This document shows positions 5,945 to 24,555 of a DNA stretch of 28,489 nt, one piece after another. Under the pieces are notes generated by a model, which was given only the letters and a program-made list of their open reading frames with translations, ran no database searches and was not told the DNA's origin. Every line of letters begins with the position of its first letter. Position 1 is the stretch's first letter. Made by a program: the position numbers and the translations under genes. The stretch is from a virus, in the IMG/VR virus record IMGVR_UViG_3300008267_000298, positions 1 to 28,489 of that record. One strand, written 5' to 3'.

Positions 5945-7198
5945 ATGGTTGGCAACCAACACCTTCTTGACCAGCTTCAGCAAATGCTAAACTGGAAAAA
6001 AAGCAAAAAGTTTTATGCAGAAAAGCTTGGAATAGGTGAAGAAGAAGTAGGAAGTCTGCTTAGAGAACTCAAAGAATCAAAAGAAGCAATTAGAACTGAA
6101 GCAGAAACATCTGATTATATTGGTCTCCTTGAAGATGCTGTAGTTAAATATGAAGAAGATCTTACTAGAGGTGTAGGAGAAGTGATTTTTAATTCTGCTG
6201 AAGAAATTAAATCTCTCGATGAGCTTATTATAAAGTCAAAGATTGATACAGAGAAGTGGGAAATAACTAAATATGTTCAGAACTATTGGGGAAACAGTAA
6301 AACTCCTCATTGGCAGGTTAAAGCCTGGATGGCTAAAAAGTCCACTGAACAACTATTCCAAGACTCATTTATTGAGTTTCTTAAAGAGTACCAACCTACA
6401 TCTACAGAAGTTAAAGTTCCTAGAGACTACACTGATAAACCTTTAGCATCTTTAATTATCAATAAACAAGACTCTCATCTAAACAAATTTGACGTAGATG
6501 GGGACAATGATATAAGCAAAAGGTTCTCTAATATTCTACAGAAGGTGGAAGTTATTGTAAACCAAGCCAGCTTGTCAAACTCTGTAGACACAGTTTTCTA
6601 CATTATAGGTTCTGATGAATTTAATAGTGAGTTCACTGGAACCACAACTAAAGGAACTCCACAACAGAACATTCTTACATATCATGATTCTTTTGAGAGA
6701 ATCTGCAATCATGAGATAGAAATGATAAGAATGCTTCTTGAGAAAGCACTTGATGTACAAGTTATTTATGTAGCTGGTAATCATGATGAGTTTGTAGGAT
6801 GGCACATGATCACTTGGCTAGATGCATATTTCAAGAGTAATTTGAGAGTGACATTTGATTGTTCTCCTAAGTACAGAAAATATGTAAGTTATGGAGAAAC
6901 AGCAATGATGTTCAACCATGGTGATGCAATGAAGCCAGCAAAGCTTGCTAGTGTATTCCCAATAGAATTTAGAGAAGAATGGTCAAACCACAACAATTTC
7001 TACATATTCACTGGAGACAAGCATCATGAGATAAGTATTGACTTTGGTGGAATTAAGTTTTATCAAATACCAGCATTCTCTAACGCTAAGAGTTCTTGGG
7101 ATGAGAAGAATGGTTACACAATCTCAAAAGCTGAAGTTACAGGATTCCTTATAGATTATGAACAAGGAATGACAAACATATTCAAACAATATTTATAA
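5945..7198 (+). CDS. Calcineurin-like metallophosphoesterase with helical N-terminus
   Basis: This 417-residue protein has the full two-metal signature of the calcineurin/Mre11 phosphoesterase fold: D176-S-H178, G222-S-D224-E-F-N227, G278-N-H280-D281-E, H325-G-D327, and G357-D-K-H360-H361. The second and last motifs differ from the usual GDxxN and GHTH, but every metal position has a suitable residue. Residues 1-50 look like a helix-turn-helix ('KFYAEKLGIGEEEVGSLLREL'), and 80-140 contain a Trp-rich helical stretch. Likely activities are DNA nuclease or phosphodiesterase; the HTH favours DNA. It is the first gene after the 5833-5944 promoter and overlaps the next start (TAATG). It sits oddly inside a tail-structure block, so a role in processing or protecting DNA during late assembly is possible. 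Family sure, substrate unknown. Confidence 0.88.
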   Translation: MVGNQHLLDQLQQMLNWKKSKKFYAEKLGIGEEEVGSLLRELKESKEAIRTEAETSDYIGLLEDAVVKYEEDLTRGVGEVIFNSAEEIKSLDELIIKSKIDTEKWEITKYVQNYWGNSKTPHWQVKAWMAKKSTEQLFQDSFIEFLKEYQPTSTEVKVPRDYTDKPLASLIINKQDSHLNKFDVDGDNDISKRFSNILQKVEVIVNQASLSNSVDTVFYIIGSDEFNSEFTGTTTKGTPQQNILTYHDSFERICNHEIEMIRMLLEKALDVQVIYVAGNHDEFVGWHMITWLDAYFKSNLRVTFDCSPKYRKYVSYGETAMMFNHGDAMKPAKLASVFPIEFREEWSNHNNFYIFTGDKHHEISIDFGGIKFYQIPAFSNAKSSWDEKNGYTISKAEVTGFLIDYEQGMTNIFKQYL

Positions 7199-7926
7199 TG
7201 TCAACTTTAAGAAAATTAGTTTCAGACGTACGTTCAATGCATAAGCTGCTCTCTACAGACAGTCTTATCACTGATAGGGCTATTGCGTCTGAGATTAAAA
7301 ATAATTCACTACTTCTCATCAAAAGAGAAACTAATCTCAGAAAGCTTTGGGCTACTGACACTTTGTTTACCACAATCCCTTGCTTGCAATTGATTGAGGT
7401 TCCTATATCAGAATGTTGTGAGTTTGTAGATCCTTGCAGTGTAGCAAGAACAACATTTAAACTTCCTCGTATAGCTGAGGGTAATTATCAATATATTATT
7501 CAAGGTGTCTATTCTATAAATGCTCTCAGTGGTAGAGGTACAAAGATTAAAGAGATTACAATTAACAGGTATACCAATCTAATTAAACTTCCTATAATCA
7601 AAAGAGAAGAATACTATTGGATAATGAATGGTTACCTGTACGTAAGTAATCCTCTTCTTCGAGCTGTCAGAATATCTGCATTATTTGAAGAAGATGTTCC
7701 TAATTCAATACTTTACCCAGATTGTGAAGAGTGCGCAATAGAATATACAACTGATCAACTGTGTCTTAACCCTCTTGATAAAGAGTACGCCTGTCCTGGA
7801 TATTTAGAGAAACAAGTTCTTGAACTTACATCTCAGAAGTTACTACAAACATATTTTGCAATCAAAACAGATGTTACGGAAGATGGCATAGATGGTCAAG
7901 CACCAAATGCTAAACCAACAAGCTGA
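7198..7926 (+). CDS. Tail ring/connector-type structural protein
   Basis: This is a 242-residue protein starting within the upstream stop (TAATG) and ending in a TGATG overlap with the next gene. Residues 1-50 are helical and basic ('IASEIKNNSLLLIKRETNLRKLW'). Residues 55-180 are beta-rich with a Cys cluster (SECCEFVDPC) and a repeated Tyr pattern. Residues 165-215 contain paired Cys (PDCEEC, QLCLNP, YACPGY). In crAss-like phages a gene of this size sits immediately ahead of the IHF-like and tail tubular genes and is a virion protein of the tail or ring region. I assign it by that context and remembered similarity, not by a catalytic motif. No membrane or signal segment is seen. Confidence 0.7.
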   Translation: MSTLRKLVSDVRSMHKLLSTDSLITDRAIASEIKNNSLLLIKRETNLRKLWATDTLFTTIPCLQLIEVPISECCEFVDPCSVARTTFKLPRIAEGNYQYIIQGVYSINALSGRGTKIKEITINRYTNLIKLPIIKREEYYWIMNGYLYVSNPLLRAVRISALFEEDVPNSILYPDCEECAIEYTTDQLCLNPLDKEYACPGYLEKQVLELTSQKLLQTYFAIKTDVTEDGIDGQAPNAKPTS

Positions 7927-9377: not shown

Positions 9378-12300
9378 ATGGCTGATCAACAACAATCAAA
9401 CATTATTCAAGAGAATAATGTTGCAAGAACAGGGTTAAACTTAGACCAGTCTGTAAATCAAATTCAGAAAGGACAGCTAACTTATGCCCTGAACGCTGCT
9501 GTAGAGAACTATGACTCAAATTCTGTTAACTATCAGAATGAGCCAGGTAATGAGTTGTGCCTAAACTTTCCCGAAGAGTATCATATTATTGGAACCCACT
9601 TCATAAACGAACAGGACAAACATATATTCTTTCTCACCAATCCTACAACAGGAGCTTCTGAGATTGGATATATGGATAATAACGATTGTATCTATCACAC
9701 TTACATCAGTGGGGCTTGTCTTAATTTTAATATAGATAATCCAATACACAAAGCTGTCCATAAAATTACCAACTGTACTACAGAGATTTACTGGACAGAT
9801 GGTTTAAATCCACGTAGATATCTTGATTTAAACAATCTACCATACAAGATAAAGCCTGGTACAAATGTTTGTGATAATGAGACTATTCCAGAGTTAGATT
9901 GTAATAAGATAAAGGTTCAACCAAACTTTAACATTCCTAATCTTAAAATAACAAATGTTGTAAATGGTGGCAATCTTATTGCAGGCACTTATCAATTTGC
10001 TATTCAATATTGTGATGTTGCAGGAGATGCTTACACATCTTACTATTCAGTTACTAATCCCACACCAATTTTTGACACAGATATAACCACTCCTGATTTT
10101 AACTATCCAGTGGGTAGATCTATTGAAGTGTTAGTTAGTAACATAGATGTCACTGGATACTTTCAGTATTACAACCTTGCAGTGATAAAAACTGTAAATG
10201 CCATCACTTCTGTTGAGCTTATTGGAACCTATTTCATTGATGATTCAACCAACACAATAACTTACAATGGTCAGAATCAAGCACAGATTAGGTTAACTCT
10301 AAACGATATATTTGAGAAGTTTGCTTACTATGAGATTGCACAAGATCTCACATCTGTACAAGATGTCCTTGTTTGGGACAATCTTACATCTATAGATAGG
10401 ATTAACTATCAAAAGATTGCAAGTCAAATTAGTTTAAATTGGCAAACATACAAGCTTCCAGCTAACGAAAACTATTCTAATGAGTTAAATGCTACCAATC
10501 TCAGAGGCTATCTCAGAGATGAGGTGTATGCGTTTGAAATCGTATTTCTTCTAAGGAATGGTAAGCAAACAGATGGTTTTCATATTCCTGGAAGAGTTAA
10601 AAACTTTAATGAGTTTAGCTATCCTGATGTACCAACAACCAATCCTGATTTTATAGGTGAACCTGAGTATACATCTGGTGGTATTGGATATAGTCCATAT
10701 TGGAAGATATATAACACTGGTTCTGTACTTGGTGCTGCTTCAGGAGATAACATTGGTAACGCCACACCATATGAAGTTGGAGAATTTGCATATTGGGAAT
10801 CTACAGATGTCTATCCTTGTAATGTTGATGTTTGGGGAGAATTGGCAAACACACCCATCAGGCATCATAAGTTTCCTGATGTAAAAGTTAGTCCTATTTT
10901 CCAAAGCGGAACTCCAACCATAACAACTGGTGGTTTCTATACAAATCTTGTTATAGAAAACGAATCTGTTTTTCCAATTGGAGTAAAAGTTAGTATTCAA
11001 CAAGTTTTACAACTTATTACATCTTCAGATTTAACACAATCTCAAAAAGAAGATATTGTAGGATTTAAGATAGTTAGGGGTGATAGAAACACAAATAGTT
11101 CTATCATAGGTAAGGGTGTTCTTAGAAATGTTGGTAAATACAACAGAGAGGGTACAGATTACTACTTTCCTAACTATCCATATAATGATCTTAGACAAGA
11201 TCCATTCCTTCTTACTACAAGCAACGCATTATTTCCTTCGCCTGCTCCTGCTCAACTTGATGCATATAATAATCTTGAATCACCTTATAGATATGTATTC
11301 AACTCTCCAGAAACTTCTTTTGGAAAACCTTTCCTTGGAAATATTCTGAAGATTGAAAATGTAATGTATGGTGGCGGAAGAGCTCATTTTGTACAAGTTA
11401 GAAAGAATGCATTTTACAAGTTTATTTCACAAGATGCTCAAAAGAAGGCGTTAGATTCAAGTGCTGATATTGCTAATGTTGCTCCTCCATTTGATGCAAC
11501 AGCAATGTTCACCGCCTACCAAGCATATCTAACTATATACATCAATGGTATCACTAGAAAGAATTATGCTTATTCTTACAACTCAATAGCTCAATATAAC
11601 TATTGGGCAAATGTAGACAATGGGCTAGGAATTAAACAAAGAGAGTTAGATATTTCTCAATATATTATTCCTGGAGTACAAAATGTAGGAGATCTATATA
11701 ATATAAACAACTACGATAGAGAGTCTTCAGTTTACTTAAAAACAATAGACACAAGAGATGCATCTCCTGTAACTGCTCTACCGTATGCAAGCAAAACTCA
11801 AAGCATTGCTCCTGGTGGAATCAGTTTGGTTAGTGATGAGTCAAGATATACAATTTCTGAGAAAGGAAACTGTTTAACACCAAACAATGAGTTTAATATA
11901 TCAACTGTTGCTTACTATGGATCAATCAAAAACATACTAACCAATCAGTGGGGTCAAATGTATTCTTACAATACAATTGATACTGGTTTTCAAATAAGTC
12001 TTGATCAACAAGCTTTTCTCTCAGGTCAATCCCCAGAAATTACTGTTTTTGGTGGAGATACATTCATCAGTAAGTTCTCTTTTAAAACAAAGCTTCCGTT
12101 CTTTATTGATAATAGAGTGGGAGCTCCTGATGATTCAGATGTATTCTATGATGAGATAGGTAATGTAGCTTATCCAAAATACTGGCATTCATCTAGATCT
12201 ATACTAAGTAACTATACAGTTGTTGCAACTAGCACTGTGATGAACAACATCATATCAATAAAAGCTATCAACTTTGATTGTGCTAGCACTCCTGATAACA

Positions 12301-13670
12301 TGTACTATGATGGTAAGTTTTACTTATTTGCTTATGGTATTCCTACATTCTATTGTGAATCAAGTGTTAATGTAGATCTTAGGCAAGCATTTAATAACAG
12401 AGAGGGAGATTTCTTCCCTCACGTGAGCACGGGTATACCTGATGAATGGTTACAACAAAGTTTTGTACCTATTGCACAAGACAATACATATTATTACAAC
12501 CCAACATTCTCTAAACAAAACAAAGAGAATTCTTTCTCCCATCTACCCATAGATTGGACAAGTCAACTTTGTTACACTAATTTTCCATTTAGAACAATAT
12601 ATTCTGACAGACAACAAAGCTTTACAGATAATAGAATCAACAGTTGGTTGATATATCGTCCTATAAGCTTCTTTGATTTCCCACAGAATTATGGAGAATT
12701 GGTTAGTTTGGATGGTATTCAGAATAGAGGAATTCTTGCTAGGTTTGAGAACAAGTCATTGCTCTACAACACTCTATTGACAATAGATACAAGCAATCCT
12801 CAAGCAGCCTATATAGGAAATGATACATTGTTCAGGAGTTCTCCTCCAATTGACTTTGCAGAAACTGATCTTGGATATGTAGGAAGCCAGAATAAGATGC
12901 TTCTGAAGATACCACAAGGACAGATAACTATAGATGCTAAACGTGGACAGGTGTTCTTGATAACAGGTAATCAAGCGCAAGACTTGTCAGCATTTGGTTC
13001 AGGATTGAATAGGTTCTTTACAGACCATTTGGCATTTGAAATCCTTAGGTATTTTCCAAATGTTCCTACAGATAACCATTTCAACGGTGTTGGTCTACAT
13101 GGTGTATACGATAGTAAATATGATAGAATCATCATATCCAAGCTTGACTACATACCAAACAGTAGCGACATTAAGTATGATGAGACCACTAATGAATTCT
13201 ATATAAATATAGTGATTCCTCGTGATCCAAAACTTTATGATGATTTGGTCATAAGACAAGTGGTGTATTTAACAGATCTTGAGTATTTCTGTAATAAGTC
13301 ATGGACGCTCTCTTTCAACTTTAATACAAAGAGCTGGATAAGTTTCCACACCTATATTCCTAACTGGTATATTGGTGAGAACAACTTCTTCTATTCAGGA
13401 ATAAATGATGGGTGTAACTTAGAAGCAATTGCTGCTCAAGTGGTACCAACTCCTTCTACAACAACTACAACATCAACAATTATTCCTCCTGAACCTCTTT
13501 GTCAACTAGTAGGAACTGCAACAAGAACAGCTGAGTGTGAACTAGAAGGTGATGCTCAAAAAATACCAAACTGCTCACTTAATGGATTTGCTATAAGAGA
13601 AGCACAATGCTCTCTTGATGGATCTGCTGAAGAAGTAAGTACAACAACCACTACAACAACAATTCCTTAA
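9378..13670 (+). CDS. Tail stabilization ('muzzle'-type) protein, 1430 residues
   Basis: This is the largest complete gene of the window. The N-terminus has 'GLNLDQSVNQIQKGQLTYAL' followed by N-x-x-Y-Q-N-E-x-G-N, which I associate with the crAss-like stabilization protein family (functional analogue of P22 gp10). The body is beta-rich with many Asn, Tyr and Phe, as in a large tail-nozzle protein. A phrase near residues 470-500 (FAYWESTDVYP then WGELANTPIRHHKFPD) is also typical. The last 75 residues are different: S-T5-S-T, four 12-residue Cys repeats (13500-13640), then seven Thr and a terminal IP. That tail is probably surface exposed and may display a binding element. It starts three bases after the upstream stop and is followed by 11 bases before the next gene. 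Confidence 0.82.
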   Translation: MADQQQSNIIQENNVARTGLNLDQSVNQIQKGQLTYALNAAVENYDSNSVNYQNEPGNELCLNFPEEYHIIGTHFINEQDKHIFFLTNPTTGASEIGYMDNNDCIYHTYISGACLNFNIDNPIHKAVHKITNCTTEIYWTDGLNPRRYLDLNNLPYKIKPGTNVCDNETIPELDCNKIKVQPNFNIPNLKITNVVNGGNLIAGTYQFAIQYCDVAGDAYTSYYSVTNPTPIFDTDITTPDFNYPVGRSIEVLVSNIDVTGYFQYYNLAVIKTVNAITSVELIGTYFIDDSTNTITYNGQNQAQIRLTLNDIFEKFAYYEIAQDLTSVQDVLVWDNLTSIDRINYQKIASQISLNWQTYKLPANENYSNELNATNLRGYLRDEVYAFEIVFLLRNGKQTDGFHIPGRVKNFNEFSYPDVPTTNPDFIGEPEYTSGGIGYSPYWKIYNTGSVLGAASGDNIGNATPYEVGEFAYWESTDVYPCNVDVWGELANTPIRHHKFPDVKVSPIFQSGTPTITTGGFYTNLVIENESVFPIGVKVSIQQVLQLITSSDLTQSQKEDIVGFKIVRGDRNTNSSIIGKGVLRNVGKYNREGTDYYFPNYPYNDLRQDPFLLTTSNALFPSPAPAQLDAYNNLESPYRYVFNSPETSFGKPFLGNILKIENVMYGGGRAHFVQVRKNAFYKFISQDAQKKALDSSADIANVAPPFDATAMFTAYQAYLTIYINGITRKNYAYSYNSIAQYNYWANVDNGLGIKQRELDISQYIIPGVQNVGDLYNINNYDRESSVYLKTIDTRDASPVTALPYASKTQSIAPGGISLVSDESRYTISEKGNCLTPNNEFNISTVAYYGSIKNILTNQWGQMYSYNTIDTGFQISLDQQAFLSGQSPEITVFGGDTFISKFSFKTKLPFFIDNRVGAPDDSDVFYDEIGNVAYPKYWHSSRSILSNYTVVATSTVMNNIISIKAINFDCASTPDNMYYDGKFYLFAYGIPTFYCESSVNVDLRQAFNNREGDFFPHVSTGIPDEWLQQSFVPIAQDNTYYYNPTFSKQNKENSFSHLPIDWTSQLCYTNFPFRTIYSDRQQSFTDNRINSWLIYRPISFFDFPQNYGELVSLDGIQNRGILARFENKSLLYNTLLTIDTSNPQAAYIGNDTLFRSSPPIDFAETDLGYVGSQNKMLLKIPQGQITIDAKRGQVFLITGNQAQDLSAFGSGLNRFFTDHLAFEILRYFPNVPTDNHFNGVGLHGVYDSKYDRIIISKLDYIPNSSDIKYDETTNEFYINIVIPRDPKLYDDLVIRQVVYLTDLEYFCNKSWTLSFNFNTKSWISFHTYIPNWYIGENNFFYSGINDGCNLEAIAAQVVPTPSTTTTTSTIIPPEPLCQLVGTATRTAECELEGDAQKIPNCSLNGFAIREAQCSLDGSAEEVSTTTTTTTIP
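13455..13661 (+). repeat. Thr linkers flanking four tandem 12-residue Cys repeats
   Basis: Codons at 13455-13478 read S-T5-S-T. From 13500 to 13640 four units follow at an exact 36-base period (13500, 13536, 13572, 13608) with the consensus C-x-L-x-G-x-A-x(5). Codons 13641-13661 are seven Thr. Unit DNA sequences differ widely, so the repeat is old and kept at protein level. Confidence 0.9.
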
Positions 13671-14645: not shown

Positions 14646-15518
14646 ATGGCTAAGACAATTGTCATAAAGTTAAAAAAGGCTGGCAGAAGAGCAACTATGT
14701 TTTCCATATCTGATGATATGGGGAACATACTTGCTACTGATGTGCCTAAAAGTCAATTGATTTCTGGATTAGCTTTGAGTGTTAATGATTCTGTAAATGT
14801 GGTTGTTCTTAAATCAACAGGGATTAACTGTTGTGGAAGTGTATGGAATATTCCTGTTACAACAATCACCAATCCAGAACTAGCTGCTATTAAGTTTCAA
14901 GATTCTAACACAGCATCTCTCTGGAGACATCTCACCAATCCTGTAATATACAATACATATTACGGATGTGTAAGACCATATATTATTGAGTATCCTTTCG
15001 CATACCAATACTATGATGAGATTCTTCAGAATGTAAAGGATTACACAAAGGCATATATATATTTGCCAAGTCAACAAGGTGTGTTTGATGACAATAGAAA
15101 GATAGAAGTGGATAATGAGTGGTTCAATAAAGCTGTTCTGTATAATGGTCAGCAGAGTTCTGGTGTGCTTAAATTGGTTCCAAAACCAATGCACAACCTA
15201 AAGGAATACTTGAAGTATCCTATATACAACACTGATAGTAAGACAATTACATTCACCAAGAGTGATAACTTCTATCAATATAACACCTTCTGGGGACTCG
15301 TTAAAAACAAACAAGTTCCTTTATTCGTAAACACTTGTGAAACCATGTCTATCGATAAGATAGTAAACCAAGAAAACATGGATTATGGCAAGAGATCATT
15401 TAAGAAGGAACCTCTAAGAGCAAAAGACTTGAAGGTGAGACACATATTAGATAACAAAGATTACGTACATTTGGTAAGTCAATTCATTTACACTCCTGCT
15501 CAAATCTCTTACAAATAA
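14646..15518 (+). CDS. Virion protein sharing its N-terminal domain with upstream gene
   Basis: This is a 290-residue protein. Residues 1-72 (MAKTIVIKLKKAG...KSQLISG...STGINCCG) align with the first domain of the preceding gene over its length: MA-x-T, an AG turn, K-S-x-L-x-x-G, and S-T-G ahead of a Cys. The rest is unrelated: a Tyr-rich alpha/beta region with 'YGCVRPYIIEYPFAYQYYDE', then 'NVKDYTKAYIYLPSQQGVFD', and a basic C-terminus ('YGKRSFKKEPLRAKDLKVRH'). No catalytic motif is visible. It ends in a TAATG overlap with the multi-enzyme gene. A structural role, docked on the tail by the shared domain, is the simplest reading. I recall similar proteins in crAss-like phages, but with no known function. 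Confidence 0.72.
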   Translation: MAKTIVIKLKKAGRRATMFSISDDMGNILATDVPKSQLISGLALSVNDSVNVVVLKSTGINCCGSVWNIPVTTITNPELAAIKFQDSNTASLWRHLTNPVIYNTYYGCVRPYIIEYPFAYQYYDEILQNVKDYTKAYIYLPSQQGVFDDNRKIEVDNEWFNKAVLYNGQQSSGVLKLVPKPMHNLKEYLKYPIYNTDSKTITFTKSDNFYQYNTFWGLVKNKQVPLFVNTCETMSIDKIVNQENMDYGKRSFKKEPLRAKDLKVRHILDNKDYVHLVSQFIYTPAQISYK

Positions 15519-18500
15519 TGGCTAACAAGATTAAATGCACATGTGGACATTCCTGGAATAAATCAGATTCCAGTAAGAAGGATGTAACAGTGTGTCATAT
15601 ATGTGGAAAGAACAATATGAAAGATGGTGGCTGGCTTGATAAGTTTGATGTTCCTGAAGCACAGAATGGTATAGAAGGAACAATGGGTGGATTGACAGAT
15701 ATTGGATTTAATTACAATGGTGCATGGGGAGGTCCTTCTATGGCAATGGGAGGATCAATGCCTGGTGCTGTAGGGTTCACGTACGCGCGTACAGGAGGCA
15801 TTCCTTCTAATGGTCCTTATGCTAAGAAGACAAAAGCTAGTGCACAGAATGGTAAGGAGATGAAATTCTACCAAGAAGGACTAGATTGGAAACCAAGGAA
15901 TATTAGTAGAGATGGAAGTGAAATACCACAGGCACAAATGGGAACAATGGTAACACCTCTTAATTTCTCTAAACCAATAGGAACATTGGAGGGTGTTTCA
16001 GAAGTTATGTCTGCTCCTGCTAGAACAGCAACATATTTACTTACAGGGAAATATCAAGATCCTTCTCAAGCTCTTGGTATTAAAAATCCTGTTGGAGCTT
16101 TTGTCACTGACGCTATTCTTGATCCTACAAATTTATTAGGAATTGGTGTTGCTGGTAAAGTTGCAAAAGCTGCTACAAAAACTGCTGGTAAAGTTGTAAA
16201 AGCTGCTGACAAAGTTGCAACAGCTATTGGCAAACCTGTTGTGGAAGCAGGACAATATATAGATAAAAAGTTTATATATCCACGTGTTTTTAAAAAAGAA
16301 ATGGAGGAATTAAAAAAAGTGCATGAACTTGCTCCTAAAAGATACAATTCTCCAGAAGCAGCTCCAAGAATAAATCAGGTTTTAGGTATAGATCCTAAAA
16401 ACATTCAACAGCCAGCACTTACATTTGAACCACATATAGGAAGTCATTATTCTTCATTATTTAATAATATAAACATAGATTTAAGACAAGCAAAAAATCT
16501 TCGTAAAAAACAATTGCTTAGTCCTAAATCTATTTACGAACATGAGTATGGTCATTTTTTACAAAGAGAATCAAATAGACATAGTGAAGATTTTGCTAAA
16601 GAAGTGTCAGATTATGAAAAAGAAGTAGCTAAATATAATTCTCCAGAAAATCAAAAGATACTAAAAGATCCTAGTCTCTGGCTTAATAACAAAGATGCAG
16701 TTTTATTCTCTCCTGGAATAAAACCAATACCTGCAAGTAGACCTACAAAAATTGACTTAGCTTCAAATAAAGTTTTTGACAGACAAAAAGGTCTTGGAGT
16801 TTTACCTGATAAAGGAGTGATGAACTTAGAAAATGCCCTTGACAATTCTTCTTATTTTACACATAGAAATGTAGAACAAATGCCTTTTTTAAGAGAAATG
16901 AGGCAAAGTATGCTAGATAAAAAATATATAAAAGATTACTATGAACCCATATCACAAGAAACAATAAGTAGGTTTATACAAGAAAATCCTAAAAATAGAA
17001 TAGCTAGTTTTACATCATCAAGTAATGCTAAACGTATGGAGGGATTAGAAAAACTATTTAGAAATCTTCCAGCCATTGTTCCTGCTATAGGTGTTGGTGC
17101 TGCTGCTACAGTTGAACAAAAGAAGAAAGGTGGAAAGATAAAAAAGGATGACAATGGTTATTGGAATCCAGAGAACTGGGGAGAGCCTGTAGAAATAGGA
17201 AGCAATGAAATAACAATGCAAGGAGTGTACGAACCTCTTCTTGGTGTTTCTGATACAGGAGATGTACAATACATGGAACCTGGTCAAGATTATAAATTTA
17301 AAGGTAATAAAGTTACAGAGTATCCTATTGCTCAAGAAGGTATAAAAACTTCAGCAAATCCTTATTTCAAATCTGCTAAAGAAAGAGATGCATATAGACA
17401 AAGGTTGAAAGAAGTTTCTGAACAAGCTCTAAGTGTTGGTTCTGATGAAGATTTGTTGATAGGAACTTCCTATCATAACATAGATGAGGGAAACAACTGT
17501 ATAAATGGTATATGTGGATTAAATCGTAGAGCAGGTATAACGTATAATAAACCTACTGATGTAGATAGGTTTTTAAGTGGAGAAAAGTTTGCACAAGCTG
17601 TGGCAAAGGGAGATGAAGATTATTATCAAGTTGATGGTAATTTTCAAATAGGGGATCACATGATGTATAGAAAGAAAAAAGGAACAGCTAGTCACAACAA
17701 AATTATTTATGATAGCTTTGTAAATAACCAAGGTGAGAAAGTTTACAAAGTGATAGATAATGCTGGTGGTAAACAAATGAAAACTGATAACTATACAGAA
17801 TCAGAACTTAAAAAAATGCAACTCGAAGGAGGTGGAGGGTATGATAAAGTTAACATTTATAGACCAGGATACAGTATAGATAAAACACTTATTGAAAAAG
17901 AAAGATTAGAAAGAACATCGCCTGAAGCAAGAAAAGCATTAGCAGATCGTGCAGAAAGAATAGCTTGGGAAACTTCAAATAATCCAGGGTATAAATACTC
18001 AATTAGAAAAGATAGTGAGTATTATAATGATCAACCTGAAGGAATGCAAAAGTTTATTGAGTTTGCTAATGATGACAAAAAAATCAATAAGCTTGTTGAA
18101 AAGTTAGGAGTAGACAAGGGTGTCATACATGATGAATTACTTAATACTTTTGGTGAGTTGGGTCAAGAGAATAAATGGGAGGATAGAACATTTGGTGGAA
18201 CAGGTGGTATCGAAAACACTATTGAGAAAATCTTTAAACCCAAATCTTGGTCAATAGGTCCTGGTCAAATAAAGTTTAATACAATTGATCCAGAACTTAA
18301 ACAAAAGTTCAATATTAAGAAGCCAAAAGACTTATACGATTTTGATAAGATTATTCCATTGATGACCGCAATGAATATAAAAAATCGTAAGTATATGGAA
18401 AATCAAGGTAAAGATCTTTCTACAAAACTTATAGGTAAACCAGGAGTTGGTGCAGATGAATTAGAAGGCGGTGTTGGTAGATGGACTCCATACATGTACA

Positions 18501-18781
18501 GAGGAAAATTGAGTAATCCTGTTAGTATAGCAAATGAAGAAATAGCAGGTTCAGATCTATACGGACAAGAACTTACAGATAAAAGAAATAGCATCATTAG
18601 AGATAAAGCAAGTTTATTTGATAAAGGATCATATGCATCAAATGTATTTGAAAATATAGACAAAAATCTAGAAAGAACTCTTCCTGGAGAGTACTTTTAT
18701 CTTCCTCAAGAAATGCAACCCATCAAAATAACTGCCAAGAAAAAGAAAAAGAACGGTGGTTGGTTAGAGAAATATAAATAA
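15518..18781 (+). CDS. Multidomain virion hydrolase: zincin-, papain/NlpC- and lysozyme-like
   Basis: This is a 1087-residue Gly-rich protein with several domains. Residues 1-31 hold Cys pairs (C7-x-C9, C26-x2-C29), a small zinc ribbon. Residue 342 starts H-E-Y-G-H, an HEXXH zinc-peptidase motif inside a low-GC segment. Residues 545-600 carry a domain (NPENWGEPVEIGS...PLLGVSDTGD...PGQDYKF) I recall from other Bacteroidota phages. Residues 655-740 contain N-N-C661 and G712-D-H-M-M-Y...S-H726-N-K-I-I-Y-D, the Cys-His layout of papain/NlpC-P60/CHAP enzymes. Residues 879-918 show G-E880-L-G-Q-E and S-I-G-P-G-Q-I, the lysozyme-fold transglycosylase pattern. GGWLDK (37-42) and GGWLEK (near the C-terminus) cap both ends. 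It is likely carried in the virion and opens peptidoglycan during entry. Individual domain calls are moderate; catalysis is untested. Confidence 0.8.
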   Translation: MANKIKCTCGHSWNKSDSSKKDVTVCHICGKNNMKDGGWLDKFDVPEAQNGIEGTMGGLTDIGFNYNGAWGGPSMAMGGSMPGAVGFTYARTGGIPSNGPYAKKTKASAQNGKEMKFYQEGLDWKPRNISRDGSEIPQAQMGTMVTPLNFSKPIGTLEGVSEVMSAPARTATYLLTGKYQDPSQALGIKNPVGAFVTDAILDPTNLLGIGVAGKVAKAATKTAGKVVKAADKVATAIGKPVVEAGQYIDKKFIYPRVFKKEMEELKKVHELAPKRYNSPEAAPRINQVLGIDPKNIQQPALTFEPHIGSHYSSLFNNINIDLRQAKNLRKKQLLSPKSIYEHEYGHFLQRESNRHSEDFAKEVSDYEKEVAKYNSPENQKILKDPSLWLNNKDAVLFSPGIKPIPASRPTKIDLASNKVFDRQKGLGVLPDKGVMNLENALDNSSYFTHRNVEQMPFLREMRQSMLDKKYIKDYYEPISQETISRFIQENPKNRIASFTSSSNAKRMEGLEKLFRNLPAIVPAIGVGAAATVEQKKKGGKIKKDDNGYWNPENWGEPVEIGSNEITMQGVYEPLLGVSDTGDVQYMEPGQDYKFKGNKVTEYPIAQEGIKTSANPYFKSAKERDAYRQRLKEVSEQALSVGSDEDLLIGTSYHNIDEGNNCINGICGLNRRAGITYNKPTDVDRFLSGEKFAQAVAKGDEDYYQVDGNFQIGDHMMYRKKKGTASHNKIIYDSFVNNQGEKVYKVIDNAGGKQMKTDNYTESELKKMQLEGGGGYDKVNIYRPGYSIDKTLIEKERLERTSPEARKALADRAERIAWETSNNPGYKYSIRKDSEYYNDQPEGMQKFIEFANDDKKINKLVEKLGVDKGVIHDELLNTFGELGQENKWEDRTFGGTGGIENTIEKIFKPKSWSIGPGQIKFNTIDPELKQKFNIKKPKDLYDFDKIIPLMTAMNIKNRKYMENQGKDLSTKLIGKPGVGADELEGGVGRWTPYMYRGKLSNPVSIANEEIAGSDLYGQELTDKRNSIIRDKASLFDKGSYASNVFENIDKNLERTLPGEYFYLPQEMQPIKITAKKKKKNGGWLEKYK
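16151..16207 (+). repeat. 11-residue amphipathic repeat (33-base period)
   Basis: Copies of a 24-base unit at 16151-16174 and 16184-16207 differ at one base. They encode AGKVxKAAxKx twice, with a decayed third unit. An 11-residue Ala/Lys/Val repeat forms an amphipathic helix; in an ejected phage protein it could touch membrane. It lies just before the HEXXH domain. Confidence 0.8.
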
Positions 18782-18802
18782 AAACCTGTATAATAATATA
18801 TT

Positions 18803-21685
18803 ATGAAAAAAGACATTCTGAAAATTGCTGGTGTTAAGTCTGAAGCTGAGTTCTATAAGAAGTTTCCTTCAGAAGCTGAATTTATGGCTAAGCATGGTGG
18901 TGCTTTTAAGAAAGCCAAGATGGGAGCATCTATGGTTAAAAAGCAATTAACACAGCTTACAGATTTCTCTAATCCTCCACAAGCACTATATGGACAAAAA
19001 ATAGGTGGATTACCTCCTGCATACCAATATGATCTGTATGATCCTTACAGTGGAAAGGTAAACAATGCTGCTAAGTACAACAAGCGTACAGGTATGATTG
19101 ATTCTCCTACAGGACAAGTTAGCATGGCTGACACTCAACAAATAGGATTTGGAGACACTGGTAAAAAGTCACCTAGTAGATTTGTAAAAGATTTGAATGC
19201 CAATGATATACAATCAGGTGTTCAAATGACATCAACACTTGGTAAGAATTATCAAAAAATAAGTACTGCTATTGAAGAAAAGAAAAAAGCAAAAAGATTA
19301 AACGCTTTAAGTCCTATAGTTCTACAAGCATCTGGAACCAGACCAGAGGAGATGAAACGTAGATATGTTAGACCTGAGGACAATATAGTTGATCCAGGAC
19401 AAATTAGTAGTCCCTATGGAACAGGTATGGACTTCCTACAGATGGCATATGGTGGATCTATTGGTGGTAATCCAACAGAGATTCAGAACATGTATAACCC
19501 TGGAGACATTTATTCTGACATGGGATATGAACCATTGAGTGAGAGTGATGTGGTAAAACAATATAGAAAAGGTGGAGGCATTCCAAAAGCTCAAGGTGGC
19601 ATGGATGTGATTATAGAGGGAGTTAATACTGTAGGAGACCTAGCTGCTGGTATTATAGGTATAGGTACTAAAAAACTTAATAAAGAAAGCCAACAGCGTC
19701 TTGGACAAGCTGCTTTTCAATCAGGTATGCAAGATTTGCAAGAGAATCAATATTCTGGATTTATGGAAGATGGAGGAGAAGTTGGACTCAAGTATTTGAG
19801 CCATGATTGGCAGCCACAGGTGATTACAAAGTTTGGTGACTATGATGTGAAAGATCTTCTTAAAGATGACCCAACTATGGACACTCTTAGAGCTGGTGGT
19901 CATCTCAAGAACTACACTGCTCCTAGTGAAGCAGCTATGTCTACAGAAAGACCAATGATGCAGATGGGTGGTGAACTTCAAACACATTGGGGTGGTGGAG
20001 CTGAAACCATTTCTCAGAATCCATTCTTACCAGGAGATGGAGAAACTATAATGTTCAGAGGACAATCTCATGATGAATCTGATGGACAGGGAAGAACAGG
20101 TATTGGTATCACTTATGGTGAGAATCCTGTAGAGGTGGAAAGAGGTGAACCTGCTGTAAAGCTTCAAGATGGTGGTGAAGAAGAAAGTCTTGTTGTATAT
20201 GGCAATATGAAGATTCCTTCTTACGGAGTGAGTGAACTTAATGACCCTAAAGCAAAAGGTAAGAAGTTCAAGAGTTATGTAAATGACCTGAGTAAGATGG
20301 AGGTTAAGCAAAACAAGATAATTAATAAAGCTATTTCTGGACTGGATAGTGCTGATATTAATGATCCTTACACACTTTTGTCATTCAATTCTGACAAAGC
20401 AAATTTAACTGGAGCGTACATGAAACTAAAAGATATTGCTCAGAAGAAACAAGTTGCTGCTGGTATACAGAATGCTATTCTAGATACAGCACAGGAACAA
20501 GGATTAGATAGCGATGCTCTTTCTAAAGGTAATATTAAAAAAGCTAAAGCTTCAGACATGGCTAAGTTTGGTGGTAAGTTTACACAAGCGCAATCTGGAA
20601 TAAATCAACCTCTCACTCCTATTTTGCCAATGAGCACATATTATAGGATTGATCCAAGATCTTATTCTCCAATGGTTACAGCTTCTGAACTAAAGAATAA
20701 AATGGAACAGAAACCTGTTAATAAAAAAACAGTTGCTAAAGGTAAAGCTCCAGTTAAAGAAACAATTGAAGCATCTACACGTATTGAACCGTTTACATCT
20801 ATAGATGTTCCAAGAAAGCTAAAAAGTGCTGCAGACATGGATATCACTCCAAAAGTAACTGCTGAAGTTCCTGGTTATGCAAAGAATTTAAAAAGTCCTA
20901 CACAACTGACACCAGAAGATAAGTTCGATTGGATGGATATATACAGGCAGGCGCAACCCTATCTTATTCCTAGCAATCAAGAAGCTCTTGATCCAGCTCA
21001 ACTTGCACCAGAAATGTTTGCTTTGGCAGCCAACCAACTAGAACCTGTACAAGCACAAACCTTCCAACCTATGCTGGAAGAAATGCCCACTGTATCTTTT
21101 CAGGATCAATTAAATGAGATTCAGGCTGAAGCTAATGCTGCTAGGAGAATGGCAGGAACTAATCCAGCAGCTCAGGCAATGATAAGTGCACAGGCAGCAG
21201 CAGCTAAAAACAAAGTGCTAGGAGAACAACTTAGGACTAATCAAGTTATGCAGGCTGAGGCTAGAAAAAGAAATCTTGATGTTTTAAATAAATCAACTCT
21301 TGAAAATCTAGGTATTTTTGATAGGCAGTACGGAAGACAAGAAGAAGCTAAGTCTAAAACAAAAGCTCAAGCTCAGGCAGCTCTTAGTTCAATAGCTGAT
21401 AAAATAGCTAAGAACAAACTTGAGAACAGAACATTGGGAGTGTACGAGAATATGTACAACTATAGGTTTGGTCCTAAAGGAAGAGCTTACAATGTTAACG
21501 CTCCTGTTGATTGGAATATGCAAGGAAGTCCTTTTGCTAGAACAACTGGTGGAAAAGGACAACTGGCTCCAGGGTACGAGTTTACATATGATGCCACTGG
21601 TAATATAATTGGCACCAAAAAATCATCAAAAGAAGATACGACTGGTAAAAATGGTACTATTGTAAAAGCTATCAAAAACTTATAA
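18803..21685 (+). CDS. Large Gly-rich internal virion (cargo-type) protein
   Basis: This is a 960-residue protein. Residues 1-45 are helical with 'KSEAEFYKKFPSEAEFMAKH' leading into GGAFKKAKMG. Residues 60-330 are low-complexity and Gly-rich. Residues 390-470 form a conserved-looking beta domain ('GETIMFRGQSHDESDGQGRT', then G-I-T-Y-G-x-N-P-V-E-V-E-R-G-E-P-A-V). Residues 770-905 are a long Ala/Gln/Arg helix region ('FQDQLNEIQAEANAARRMAG'). Three copies of the decapeptide G-G-x-[FI]-x-x-A-[QK]-x-G occur at residues 32, 257 and 590. No enzyme motif is seen. Its place between the multi-enzyme protein and the ejection-type proteins, and its helical C-terminus, suggest an internal head or tail-lumen protein released at infection. 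Confidence 0.75.
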   Translation: MKKDILKIAGVKSEAEFYKKFPSEAEFMAKHGGAFKKAKMGASMVKKQLTQLTDFSNPPQALYGQKIGGLPPAYQYDLYDPYSGKVNNAAKYNKRTGMIDSPTGQVSMADTQQIGFGDTGKKSPSRFVKDLNANDIQSGVQMTSTLGKNYQKISTAIEEKKKAKRLNALSPIVLQASGTRPEEMKRRYVRPEDNIVDPGQISSPYGTGMDFLQMAYGGSIGGNPTEIQNMYNPGDIYSDMGYEPLSESDVVKQYRKGGGIPKAQGGMDVIIEGVNTVGDLAAGIIGIGTKKLNKESQQRLGQAAFQSGMQDLQENQYSGFMEDGGEVGLKYLSHDWQPQVITKFGDYDVKDLLKDDPTMDTLRAGGHLKNYTAPSEAAMSTERPMMQMGGELQTHWGGGAETISQNPFLPGDGETIMFRGQSHDESDGQGRTGIGITYGENPVEVERGEPAVKLQDGGEEESLVVYGNMKIPSYGVSELNDPKAKGKKFKSYVNDLSKMEVKQNKIINKAISGLDSADINDPYTLLSFNSDKANLTGAYMKLKDIAQKKQVAAGIQNAILDTAQEQGLDSDALSKGNIKKAKASDMAKFGGKFTQAQSGINQPLTPILPMSTYYRIDPRSYSPMVTASELKNKMEQKPVNKKTVAKGKAPVKETIEASTRIEPFTSIDVPRKLKSAADMDITPKVTAEVPGYAKNLKSPTQLTPEDKFDWMDIYRQAQPYLIPSNQEALDPAQLAPEMFALAANQLEPVQAQTFQPMLEEMPTVSFQDQLNEIQAEANAARRMAGTNPAAQAMISAQAAAAKNKVLGEQLRTNQVMQAEARKRNLDVLNKSTLENLGIFDRQYGRQEEAKSKTKAQAQAALSSIADKIAKNKLENRTLGVYENMYNYRFGPKGRAYNVNAPVDWNMQGSPFARTTGGKGQLAPGYEFTYDATGNIIGTKKSSKEDTTGKNGTIVKAIKNL

Positions 21686-21771: not shown

Positions 21772-24555
21772 ATGGCTTCATTTACAGACGCAATATCACA
21801 ATTTAATCCCTACGTTTCCCAGCTTCCCGTGGATGCTATGGTGAAGGTAGGTATGCAAAAACAAGCTCAGTATGATCAAGGAGTGCAGAAAATTCAAAGC
21901 TATGTAGATAATGTAGCAGGAATGAGTGTTTTGCGTCCTGTGGATAAACAGTATCTTGAGTCAAAAGTTAATCAATTAGGAAGTAGACTTAAGAATGTAG
22001 CTGGTGGAGATTTTTCAAATAGTCAACTTGTTAACTCTGTAGGAGGAATGGTTGGTCAAGTGGTAAAAGATCCTCTAGTTATGGCTGCTATGTATTCTAC
22101 ACAGAACGATGCAAAGAACCAAGCTGAGATGGAAGCTGATGAAAAAACTGGAAAACTCACTCCTCATGCTAGGTATTTTTATGATATTAAGCGTAATGCT
22201 TATTTGAATAATACAGAATTAAAAAACCAAGAAGGTAAACCTATCACCTTCACTGGACAATATCAGCGTTCTTGGGATCTTGATAAAAATATAATAGACG
22301 CAGTTAATGCTGTAGGTGAGCGTAAGTATGATGCTAAGCAAATATTTAAGACAGATCCTACTACAGGAGCAATATTGTATAACACACAAACTATAAAAAA
22401 TCCTAAAACAGGAAAAACTGAACAAGTTCAGGGCACTCCAATTCTTTCTGAATATGCCACAAGAGAGATAAAAGAAGGTAAGTTTAGTGAGAACATCTCT
22501 GCTGCTATCGATAGTGTATTATCTAGACCAGAAGCTCAACAAGAACTTTTGATGAGAGGTGTCTACACTTACAGAGGATATGATGACATTAATGATTTTG
22601 TTGCTGAGTATGAGAAAGAAAAGAGAACAGGACTTTCTCTTTTAGAAAGCAAGAAGCTTGAATTAATGAATAAGGTTCTTCTTGAAACAGATCCAGATAG
22701 AAAGGAACAACTTAAGAGATTGGTTGATTCTACTGAGAGTGAAATGTCCACACTTGCTAAATACGAAGATCCAAGAATCAAACAAGCAATAGCAACAAAA
22801 GATCTGGATGCTTACAAAGCAATGGTTTACACACAGCGTCAGAAGAACAATTGGATGACTTCGTATGTAACTGAATCAAACACAATAGATTATGTAGAAA
22901 GTGCTCCTTGGCAAGCTTATAGGCAAAAGATTAAAGATGAGCAAGAGTGGTGGGCTACAAAAGATGCAAGTAGCAGAGGATGGGCAGCAGTAAATATTTC
23001 TAGACAAAATGCAGCTCTTGAGGCAGAGAAGTGGAAATATGATCCAAATAATCCAGATGCAGCAATCAATCAAGCTAAACCTTATGAAAAAGCTTCCACT
23101 CCACAAGAACTATATAATAATTGGATAAGTTCAGGAGCAGAAGCTAGTGATAACTACGATGCTTCTAAAAAACAGTTTGTTGTAGATTACATGAAAGCAT
23201 TGAATTATGGGAATGGAAGAACCTACTCAGATGATGAAATAACAAGAAGTGCATATCAATATGAAAAAGACCGTCCTGGTTTTTTTGAAAGACAATATGC
23301 AATTGCTAAATCTGCTGTACAAAACAATCCTACAAACCCAGCTTTCTCAAATCTCATAACTTCCCTACCTGGAGTAAATCGTCTTGAGAAACAAGTTGAG
23401 AATTTCTCTAGAGAAGTTGATGAAATTAACAATGATCCAGAAGTTATAGCTGCAGCTGGAGGAAAAAAAGCTTCAGATTTAGAAAAGAACTTTAAAACTA
23501 CAAAGTTTAAGTTTCAAGGGTTTGGCGGTCAAGAGATTACTCTTACACCAAAAGATCAAATGAATTTAGCAATTGCACTTTCTACCACAAAAGGTTCTGC
23601 ACAAAATAATAAAGCAGTAGCTGAACTTAGAGCCTCTACAGGAAAAACGGTTGATAATCTTGTTACTACGGTTGGTATGATAGCTGAGACTGGAAAGAGT
23701 TTTAAAGAAGCAGGATTTACTTCTTTCTTTACAGATCCATTGTACGCACTTGATAAAAGAAGTCCTGAACATAAAGCTGCTGCTGGAAATATCCGAAAGT
23801 ATATGGATCTTATTGGTGCAGATGTTACTAGTGCTAAAGAGAATGTGCTAAAACAAAAAATGAAAGGGAACAGTCCTTTGGCATTTGAACTATTCTCTCC
23901 TGGTGCTAAAACTCCTGAGAAGGAATCAACTGTAGAAAGACTTAAAACTGTGCTTGCTGATAAGAATATAAGCGATGAAGATGTTTCTAAGTTTGCAGCA
24001 TTCTATTCAGGAACTGGTGCAGATAAAGATGCATACACAGTGAACATTGGTGTTAATAGAGGTGGTGCTTTTGGTGGAGAACCTAAATTGAGTCTTGATC
24101 TATATGATAAAGATGGATTAGTAAAATCTGTCATTGTAAGTAAAAACGATGCTGATTATATAAAAGGAACAAGATTAAACATACCAGCTCCTGTATCAGA
24201 TGCTGTAAAGAGAGTTAACTGGAATACTAAAACAGGTTCTACAAACTCTACGACAGCTGACCTAAACAATCCAAATGCTTATAAAGGAGCATTCTATCAG
24301 AGCGATGATTTCTATTCACTCAATAGACCTAATCTATTGGGAGCTGATATAAAAATAAATAATCTTGGTCAACCAAATGTATATTTTTATACAAAGGATA
24401 GGAACGGTAATCCTAAAGCTGCACCTTTTAAAGCCAGTGCTTCTGACATTTTACCAACTGGATTTTCTAGTATAGATGCAGCAGATAAGTTCATAAAAGG
24501 TATCACTACCGCTGCTCAGATTGATAACATCTTGAAGAACGCAAATATAAAATAG
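21772..24555 (+). CDS. Helical internal/ejection-type virion protein, 927 residues
   Basis: The N-terminus reads FNPYVSQLPVDAMVKVGMQKQ followed by a helical stretch with 'VDKQYLESKVNQLGSRLKNV', a start I recall from a family of large Bacteroidota and crAss-like phage virion proteins. The rest is mainly helical, charged and free of Cys, with a Trp-rich stretch ('WQAYRQKIKDEQEWW') near residues 380-405 and a beta-rich C-terminal 150 residues. No signal peptide or catalytic motif is seen. It has its own promoter at 21726-21757 and is separated by only two bases from the giant gene that follows, so the two are probably made together. In crAss-like phages proteins at this position are packaged cargo ejected with DNA; that role is inferred here. 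Confidence 0.75.
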   Translation: MASFTDAISQFNPYVSQLPVDAMVKVGMQKQAQYDQGVQKIQSYVDNVAGMSVLRPVDKQYLESKVNQLGSRLKNVAGGDFSNSQLVNSVGGMVGQVVKDPLVMAAMYSTQNDAKNQAEMEADEKTGKLTPHARYFYDIKRNAYLNNTELKNQEGKPITFTGQYQRSWDLDKNIIDAVNAVGERKYDAKQIFKTDPTTGAILYNTQTIKNPKTGKTEQVQGTPILSEYATREIKEGKFSENISAAIDSVLSRPEAQQELLMRGVYTYRGYDDINDFVAEYEKEKRTGLSLLESKKLELMNKVLLETDPDRKEQLKRLVDSTESEMSTLAKYEDPRIKQAIATKDLDAYKAMVYTQRQKNNWMTSYVTESNTIDYVESAPWQAYRQKIKDEQEWWATKDASSRGWAAVNISRQNAALEAEKWKYDPNNPDAAINQAKPYEKASTPQELYNNWISSGAEASDNYDASKKQFVVDYMKALNYGNGRTYSDDEITRSAYQYEKDRPGFFERQYAIAKSAVQNNPTNPAFSNLITSLPGVNRLEKQVENFSREVDEINNDPEVIAAAGGKKASDLEKNFKTTKFKFQGFGGQEITLTPKDQMNLAIALSTTKGSAQNNKAVAELRASTGKTVDNLVTTVGMIAETGKSFKEAGFTSFFTDPLYALDKRSPEHKAAAGNIRKYMDLIGADVTSAKENVLKQKMKGNSPLAFELFSPGAKTPEKESTVERLKTVLADKNISDEDVSKFAAFYSGTGADKDAYTVNIGVNRGGAFGGEPKLSLDLYDKDGLVKSVIVSKNDADYIKGTRLNIPAPVSDAVKRVNWNTKTGSTNSTTADLNNPNAYKGAFYQSDDFYSLNRPNLLGADIKINNLGQPNVYFYTKDRNGNPKAAPFKASASDILPTGFSSIDAADKFIKGITTAAQIDNILKNANIK

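Follow-up and report, generated by a model that had tools for sequence, protein, structure and literature searches.

A recurring decapeptide in cargo-position proteins and small basic proteins of a crassvirus group: a candidate virion-loading motif

Two adjacent large proteins encoded in a crassvirus gene block, P1 (1087 aa, positions 15518-18781, + strand) and P2 (960 aa, positions 18803-21685, + strand), share a recurring ten-residue peptide, which raises the question of what such a peptide does in two putative virion proteins. An earlier note on this DNA proposed that it serves both proteins as a packaging tag, docking site or cleavage site. We addressed the question using the whole stretch of 28,489 nt (hereafter the window) and related viral genomes. 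Probably the peptide serves many proteins as one common label, by which they are sorted or docked into the virion. We put at about one half the probability that it is a short linear motif bringing proteins into the virion, or holding them there, in this crassvirus group.

The window was identified as a crassvirus structural block by a CrAss_Ring_2 protein (PF25702, E 8.9e-18; positions 7198-7926, + strand), the match that places the virus in the Crassvirales, and by a muzzle-like ORF (positions 9378-13670) with a csAssE-Sib match annotated as 'Muzzle protein'. The muzzle-like ORF is followed by two ORFs, P1, P2, a 927-aa ORF in the position of gp46 (positions 21772-24555, + strand) and an RNAP-side ORF. 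A crassvirus major capsid protein was not found within the 28.5-kb fragment; a relative (G003) contains Crass_capsid (PF23898, E 5.6e-29) together with ring proteins. The structural block of this relative also contains a Band_7/SPFH-domain ORF between its portal-like and scaffold-like ORFs (L078:12543-13073).

P1 contains one copy of the decapeptide, GSEIPQAQMG (residues 133-142, positions 15914-15943), and P2 contains three, GGAFKKAKMG (residues 32-41, positions 18896-18925), GGGIPKAQGG (residues 257-266, positions 19571-19600) and GGKFTQAQSG (residues 590-599, positions 20570-20599), all on the + strand and translating exactly as first described. The further AQxG pieces reported at P1 residues 48, 109 and 605 were also present in the translation. 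The first lies in GGWLDKFDVPEAQNG (residues 37-51, positions 15626-15670, + strand), where it follows a GGWL piece (GGWLDKF, from 15626-15637), in agreement with the GGWLDK said to precede it; the others are AQNG (positions 15842-15853, + strand) and AQEG (positions 17330-17341, + strand). The description of the two proteins as Gly-rich holds only mildly (9.2-9.3% Gly, versus 6-7% in three neighboring large ORFs).

When P1 and P2 were shuffled, 0.0026 copies of the decapeptide were expected versus the four observed, and none of 20,000 shuffles reached four, so the peptide is more frequent than in shuffled sequence of this composition. AQxG was observed 6 times versus 0.79 expected (P about 1e-4), and the control patterns A.QG, AQG, AQ..G, QA.G and AE.G were not enriched in P1 and P2 by the same procedure. 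Shuffling within local blocks of 20 residues, which keeps the local Gly content, had the same outcome. The decapeptide pattern was picked after the data had been seen, so that the decisive weight lies with the held-out tests given below. Synonymous codons differ among the four copies of the window and follow the background codon usage of the family; the differing codons point to selection on the peptide and not to a DNA repeat.

Relatives of P1 and P2 are encoded in viral contigs (24 and 49, respectively). Far from being absent from homologs, the copies are largely kept in 47 P2 homologs. In copy 1, K37 and A38 are each conserved in 42 of the 47 sequences and G41 in 46; in copy 2, GG is conserved in all 47, A in 36, Q in 28 and G in 38; and in copy 3, A is conserved in 34, Q in 31 and G in 43. 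The gap-free pattern G-[GS]-x-[FI]-x-x-A-[QK]-x-G fits the four copies of the window, as proposed; the leading GG of copy 1 is peculiar to this virus. In 41 of the 47 homologs K stands in place of the second G of copy 1, which reduces the conserved core to [FILV]-x-x-A-[QK]-x-G. The C-terminal residues of P2, K-N-G-x-I-V-K-A-I-K-N-L (positions 21646-21682), are also kept in most of these homologs, and they loosely resemble the motif core (G-x-I-x-K-A).

Comparison of the P2 family with that of cargo protein 1 (gp45) of crAss001, a virion protein held at the portal and tail (PMC10172136), showed a distant relationship (hhalign probability 96%, E 2e-9), which extended to the portal-bound domain alone (gp45 424-555, probability 89%, E 2e-6); reversed and column-shuffled controls gave 0.07 or worse. 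PF25725 (crAss_CARG1) was matched by none of 29 P2 family members at E up to 1, and fold searches with the whole P2 model and with its domain returned generic helical matches only, gp45 not being listed. P2 is therefore a gp45 relative by profile homology plus gene order, its position matching that of gp45. P1 and P2 gave no match in tblastn searches against cultured phages, and nothing usable in Pfam and PHROG. Their gene position, together with the distant relation of P2 to gp45, suggests that both are virion proteins.

In the crAss001 structure (PMC10172136), the portal is bound by gp45 residues 425-552, and the tail barrel contains residues 214-245. The P2 folded domain (residues about 392-566, positions 19976-20500, + strand; model pLDDT mostly 80-94) aligns by hhalign with gp45 420-560 and, on this alignment, is the counterpart of the portal-bound domain. 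In the structure model, copy 1 lies in an N-terminal helical hairpin, copy 2 in a stretch of predicted disorder ahead of the folded domain, and copy 3, likewise in predicted disorder, directly after it. Like P2, gp45 has recurring Gly motifs, with A-x-GG pieces just before residue 214, ahead of the tail-bound segment, and at each edge of 425-552, one at its start and one just after it. Unlike P2, which falls below the PF25725 model, the gp45 relatives use [FY]A-x-GG (16 versus 0.7 expected) and GG-x-[LI] (51 versus 11 expected), and are not enriched in A[QK]-x-G (14 versus 10 expected). The exact decapeptide is thus not general in the Crassvirales.

P1 is a mosaic protein, with the motif at module borders. 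P1 homologs have in common the N-terminal region and one joint module (residues about 532-609 in the window protein), while the segments between and after them differ. The slot closing the joint module, occupied by AQEG in the window, holds either AQ/AK-x-G or a GGWLxKY end in the homologs. P1 of the window itself ends in NGGWLEKYK (GGWLEKYK, positions 18755-18778, + strand), and GGW[LVI] is found in the last 14 residues of 47 of the 52 P1-related proteins whose C-terminus is complete, where it may be a second terminal tag. A literature search found no published work on GGWLDKY. The variable segments of P1 include HEYGH (positions 16541-16555) and NNCINGICGLN (positions 17492-17524), which are suggestive of a metallopeptidase and of a cysteine peptidase or amidase, respectively, and had no Pfam match. 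A single ORF joins the N-terminal portion of P1 to P2 in some relatives (L005:9965-13444, L006-L009:9905-14071). A similarity of the joint module to the P2 family (hhalign E 1e-9) was set aside, the P2 alignment including module-carrying P1-P2 fusions, as was a match of the P2 N-terminal HMM to P1, with fusion proteins again in the alignment.

Among the other large ORFs of the window, the one in the gp46 position has no copy of the motif (best profile score 3.1), and a profile scan found none in the muzzle-like and RNAP-side ORFs. The motif is therefore not on every cargo protein, and, as a packaging tag, it would not be universal among large cargo proteins.

The motif had been described as shared by two cargo-type proteins; both carry copies, but in related genomes it is not confined to them. 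In nine near-complete relatives it also recurs in a cluster of small, very basic ORFs. A profile constructed from the P1/P2 copies, by which GSEIPQAQMG had the best score of the window (21.9 bits), was run on these relatives and matched almost only P1, P2 and small basic late-strand ORFs. The training copies include those of the nine genomes, and the held-out set consists of the matches outside P1/P2 only: 27 of these scored above 13 bits, versus 2.75 in shuffles, most of them in small basic ORFs. Many of the small-ORF matches start at residue 3, with the form M-x-K-[IV]-K-K-A-Q-x-G, in the same register as the decapeptide. The core pattern was counted 27 times in small basic ORFs, 23 times in P1/P2-like genes and 7 times in all other genes, compared with 1-4, 2-3 and 7-12 times, respectively, for swapped or respaced controls.

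When 2.9 million viral contigs were scanned at the DNA level, the N-terminal form was recovered in 60 stretches, versus 2 for a control with A and Q swapped. The 54 tagged ORFs of at least 60 aa, which were called mechanically and in which redundancy among related contigs was cut by removing identical sequences only, fell into 19 clusters by the body adjoining the tag, and contained 17 further internal copies versus 1.6 expected. When linked by any similarity, most of them fell into one large group, because some pieces, an EF-hand-like segment among them, recur from body to body. The start codons of some are uncertain because an upstream in-frame extension is possible, and one of the 54 (L200) seems to be an internal P1-type junction instead of a gene start. 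A conserved N-terminal peptide on diverse small proteins, as in the capsid targeting sequence (CTS) of T4, was found in this set. That many small basic late-strand ORFs, unrelated to one another, begin with the motif shifts the evidence toward a tag or docking site.

The tagged small proteins mostly contain 24-33% K+R and have a pI near 10-11, and their ORFs lie on the same strand as P2 and the capsid gene in every genome checked; the tag is missing from some small basic ORFs in the same clusters. Three of the tagged proteins had no Pfam match, and a tblastn search with one of them against cultured phages matched only an EF-hand-like piece in a pelagiphage. No published work on small basic proteins of crAss-like phages was found in a literature search. 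The clusters (G003:877-3028, G002:86275-88975, G011:22139-24359, G007:37896-38932 and G009:44187-46052) recombine a few pieces, including the EF-hand-like SFPDLNKDGKITKADILKGRGV, SPAWQRKEGK...SRINKSLRKWNC and C-termini like GGKMKKCKYGC. The small-ORF cluster adjoins an ORF that, read by eye, looks like a ferritin or Dps (MAKSLFPDEMM...).

To describe the wider occurrence of the motif, 20 longer tagged contigs were examined: 14 contained Crass_capsid and 11 a P2 homolog. Bacterial and archaeal genomes (257 Gb) gave 14 matches, none of them at the start of a small basic gene like the phage ones. In one genome (G012), a 4141-aa ORF of the RNAP block begins with MSKENLPKAQSG. In the isolated phage Lbo-JY46, an ORF located between the muzzle-like and gp46-position genes (protein XAI97384) starts with MKIRIIGLPKAQIG, the tag occupying residues 7-14; this was the best match of its genome. 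The muzzle gene of this Leptolyngbya phage (PP438436.1:77867-79321), the host of which is recorded as a cyanobacterium, is crassvirus-like (34.7% identity), and the tag is N-terminal on a cargo-position ORF.

A loading or docking role may be pictured as follows. The core of the linear motif would be [I/V/F/L]-x-[K/P/Q]-A-[Q/K]-x-G, present in P1 and P2 as several copies between modules, and in the small basic late-strand ORFs as the N-terminal ten residues or as repeats inside the protein. A single partner inside the prohead or tail would recognize it during assembly, candidates being a scaffold-like protein, the portal, the ring proteins and the inner face of the capsid protein. Many unrelated proteins could then be loaded or held through the same peptide, and the multiple copies on P1 and P2 could provide avidity, or anchor the chain in several places within the portal and tail channel.

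Such use of one peptide by many proteins would resemble that in two known systems. The T4 CTS (IPI-III, Alt) is a short N-terminal peptide that is the sole conserved part of diverse small internal proteins (PMC3012670, PMC7411985), and here too a short conserved N-terminal peptide is found on small proteins with differing bodies. The present motif differs from the CTS in its sequence, in being repeated inside large cargo-type proteins, in that packaging itself is here what we infer from sequence, and in that the S77 prohead protease (gp21) that removes the T4 peptide was not found in the nine relatives. Because no S77 or S78 protease was found, the motif is not assigned to the T4 CTS. Encapsulin cargo-loading peptides are about ten residues long, N- or C-terminal, and bring unrelated proteins into a shell of the HK97 fold (PMC7355545). 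The present motif is similar in length and in its occurrence on unrelated proteins; the sequences differ, encapsulins are not viruses, and any shell binding by the present motif is putative.

Several other explanations were weighed. The motif could be a processing site, with a protease cutting at A-Q-x-G or beside it, either in the course of maturation or following ejection, trimming the N-termini of the small proteins and separating the modules of P1 and P2. The copies at the module borders of P1 and in the disordered stretches of P2 are consistent with this, as are the N-terminal ten-residue position, which resembles the cleaved T4 propeptide, and the protease-like patterns HEYGH and NNCINGICGLN of P1 itself. 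However, Peptidase_S77 (PF03420) and Peptidase_S78 (PF04586), the families by which a T4- or HK97-type prohead protease was sought, were absent from the nine near-complete relatives, and Pfam identified no protease among ten structural genes of one relative. We consider processing unlikely. Of the functions proposed in the earlier note, a tag or docking site is favored by the N-terminal copies on the small ORFs, and cleavage gained no positive support from the search for these peptidases.

The disorder around P2 copies 2 and 3 would also suit a flexible hinge, in which Gly joints kept for mechanical reasons, and not for a binding partner, let cargo unfold through the portal and tail; ejection through the narrow tail requires partial unfolding of cargo (PMC10172136). 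A hinge would have no need for the A-Q order, yet the swapped and respaced controls were not enriched, and it would leave unexplained why many small proteins have the motif as their first ten residues, making this reading rather improbable. We are as doubtful that it is a basic peptide helping the small proteins and cargo to lie on packaged DNA. The high K+R content and pI of the tagged small proteins, and the contacts of T4 internal protein lysines with DNA phosphates (PMC3012670), speak for such a role, whereas GSEIPQAQMG and GGKFTQAQSG of P1 and P2 are hardly basic and nevertheless keep A, Q and G. That the pattern was picked after the fact, and that P1 is a mosaic, could suggest that Gly-rich sequences resemble one another by chance, or that the motif is a repeat or a recombination joint at the DNA level. 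Chance and composition are ruled out by the shuffles, control patterns and held-out sets, and a repeat or joint by codons that differ between copies and match background use; we give this explanation almost no weight.

The loading or docking reading may extend beyond this group. Environmental crassviruses could use one peptide as a virion-loading code, making it a general, portable packaging signal for this virus order, a proposal that we regard as tentative. The users of such a code would possibly be portal-associated cargo, modular enzyme-type cargo, sometimes the giant protein of the RNAP block, and small basic proteins codelivered with the DNA. The motif bears on the selection and retention of the megadaltons of protein that crassviruses store in their capsid and tail. 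With a peptide common to cargo-type proteins and a set of uncharacterized small proteins, the question of cargo choice becomes directly testable. If true, the proposed role would predict which uncharacterized ORFs encode virion or injected proteins, and would provide a handle for loading reporter proteins into laboratory phage particles.
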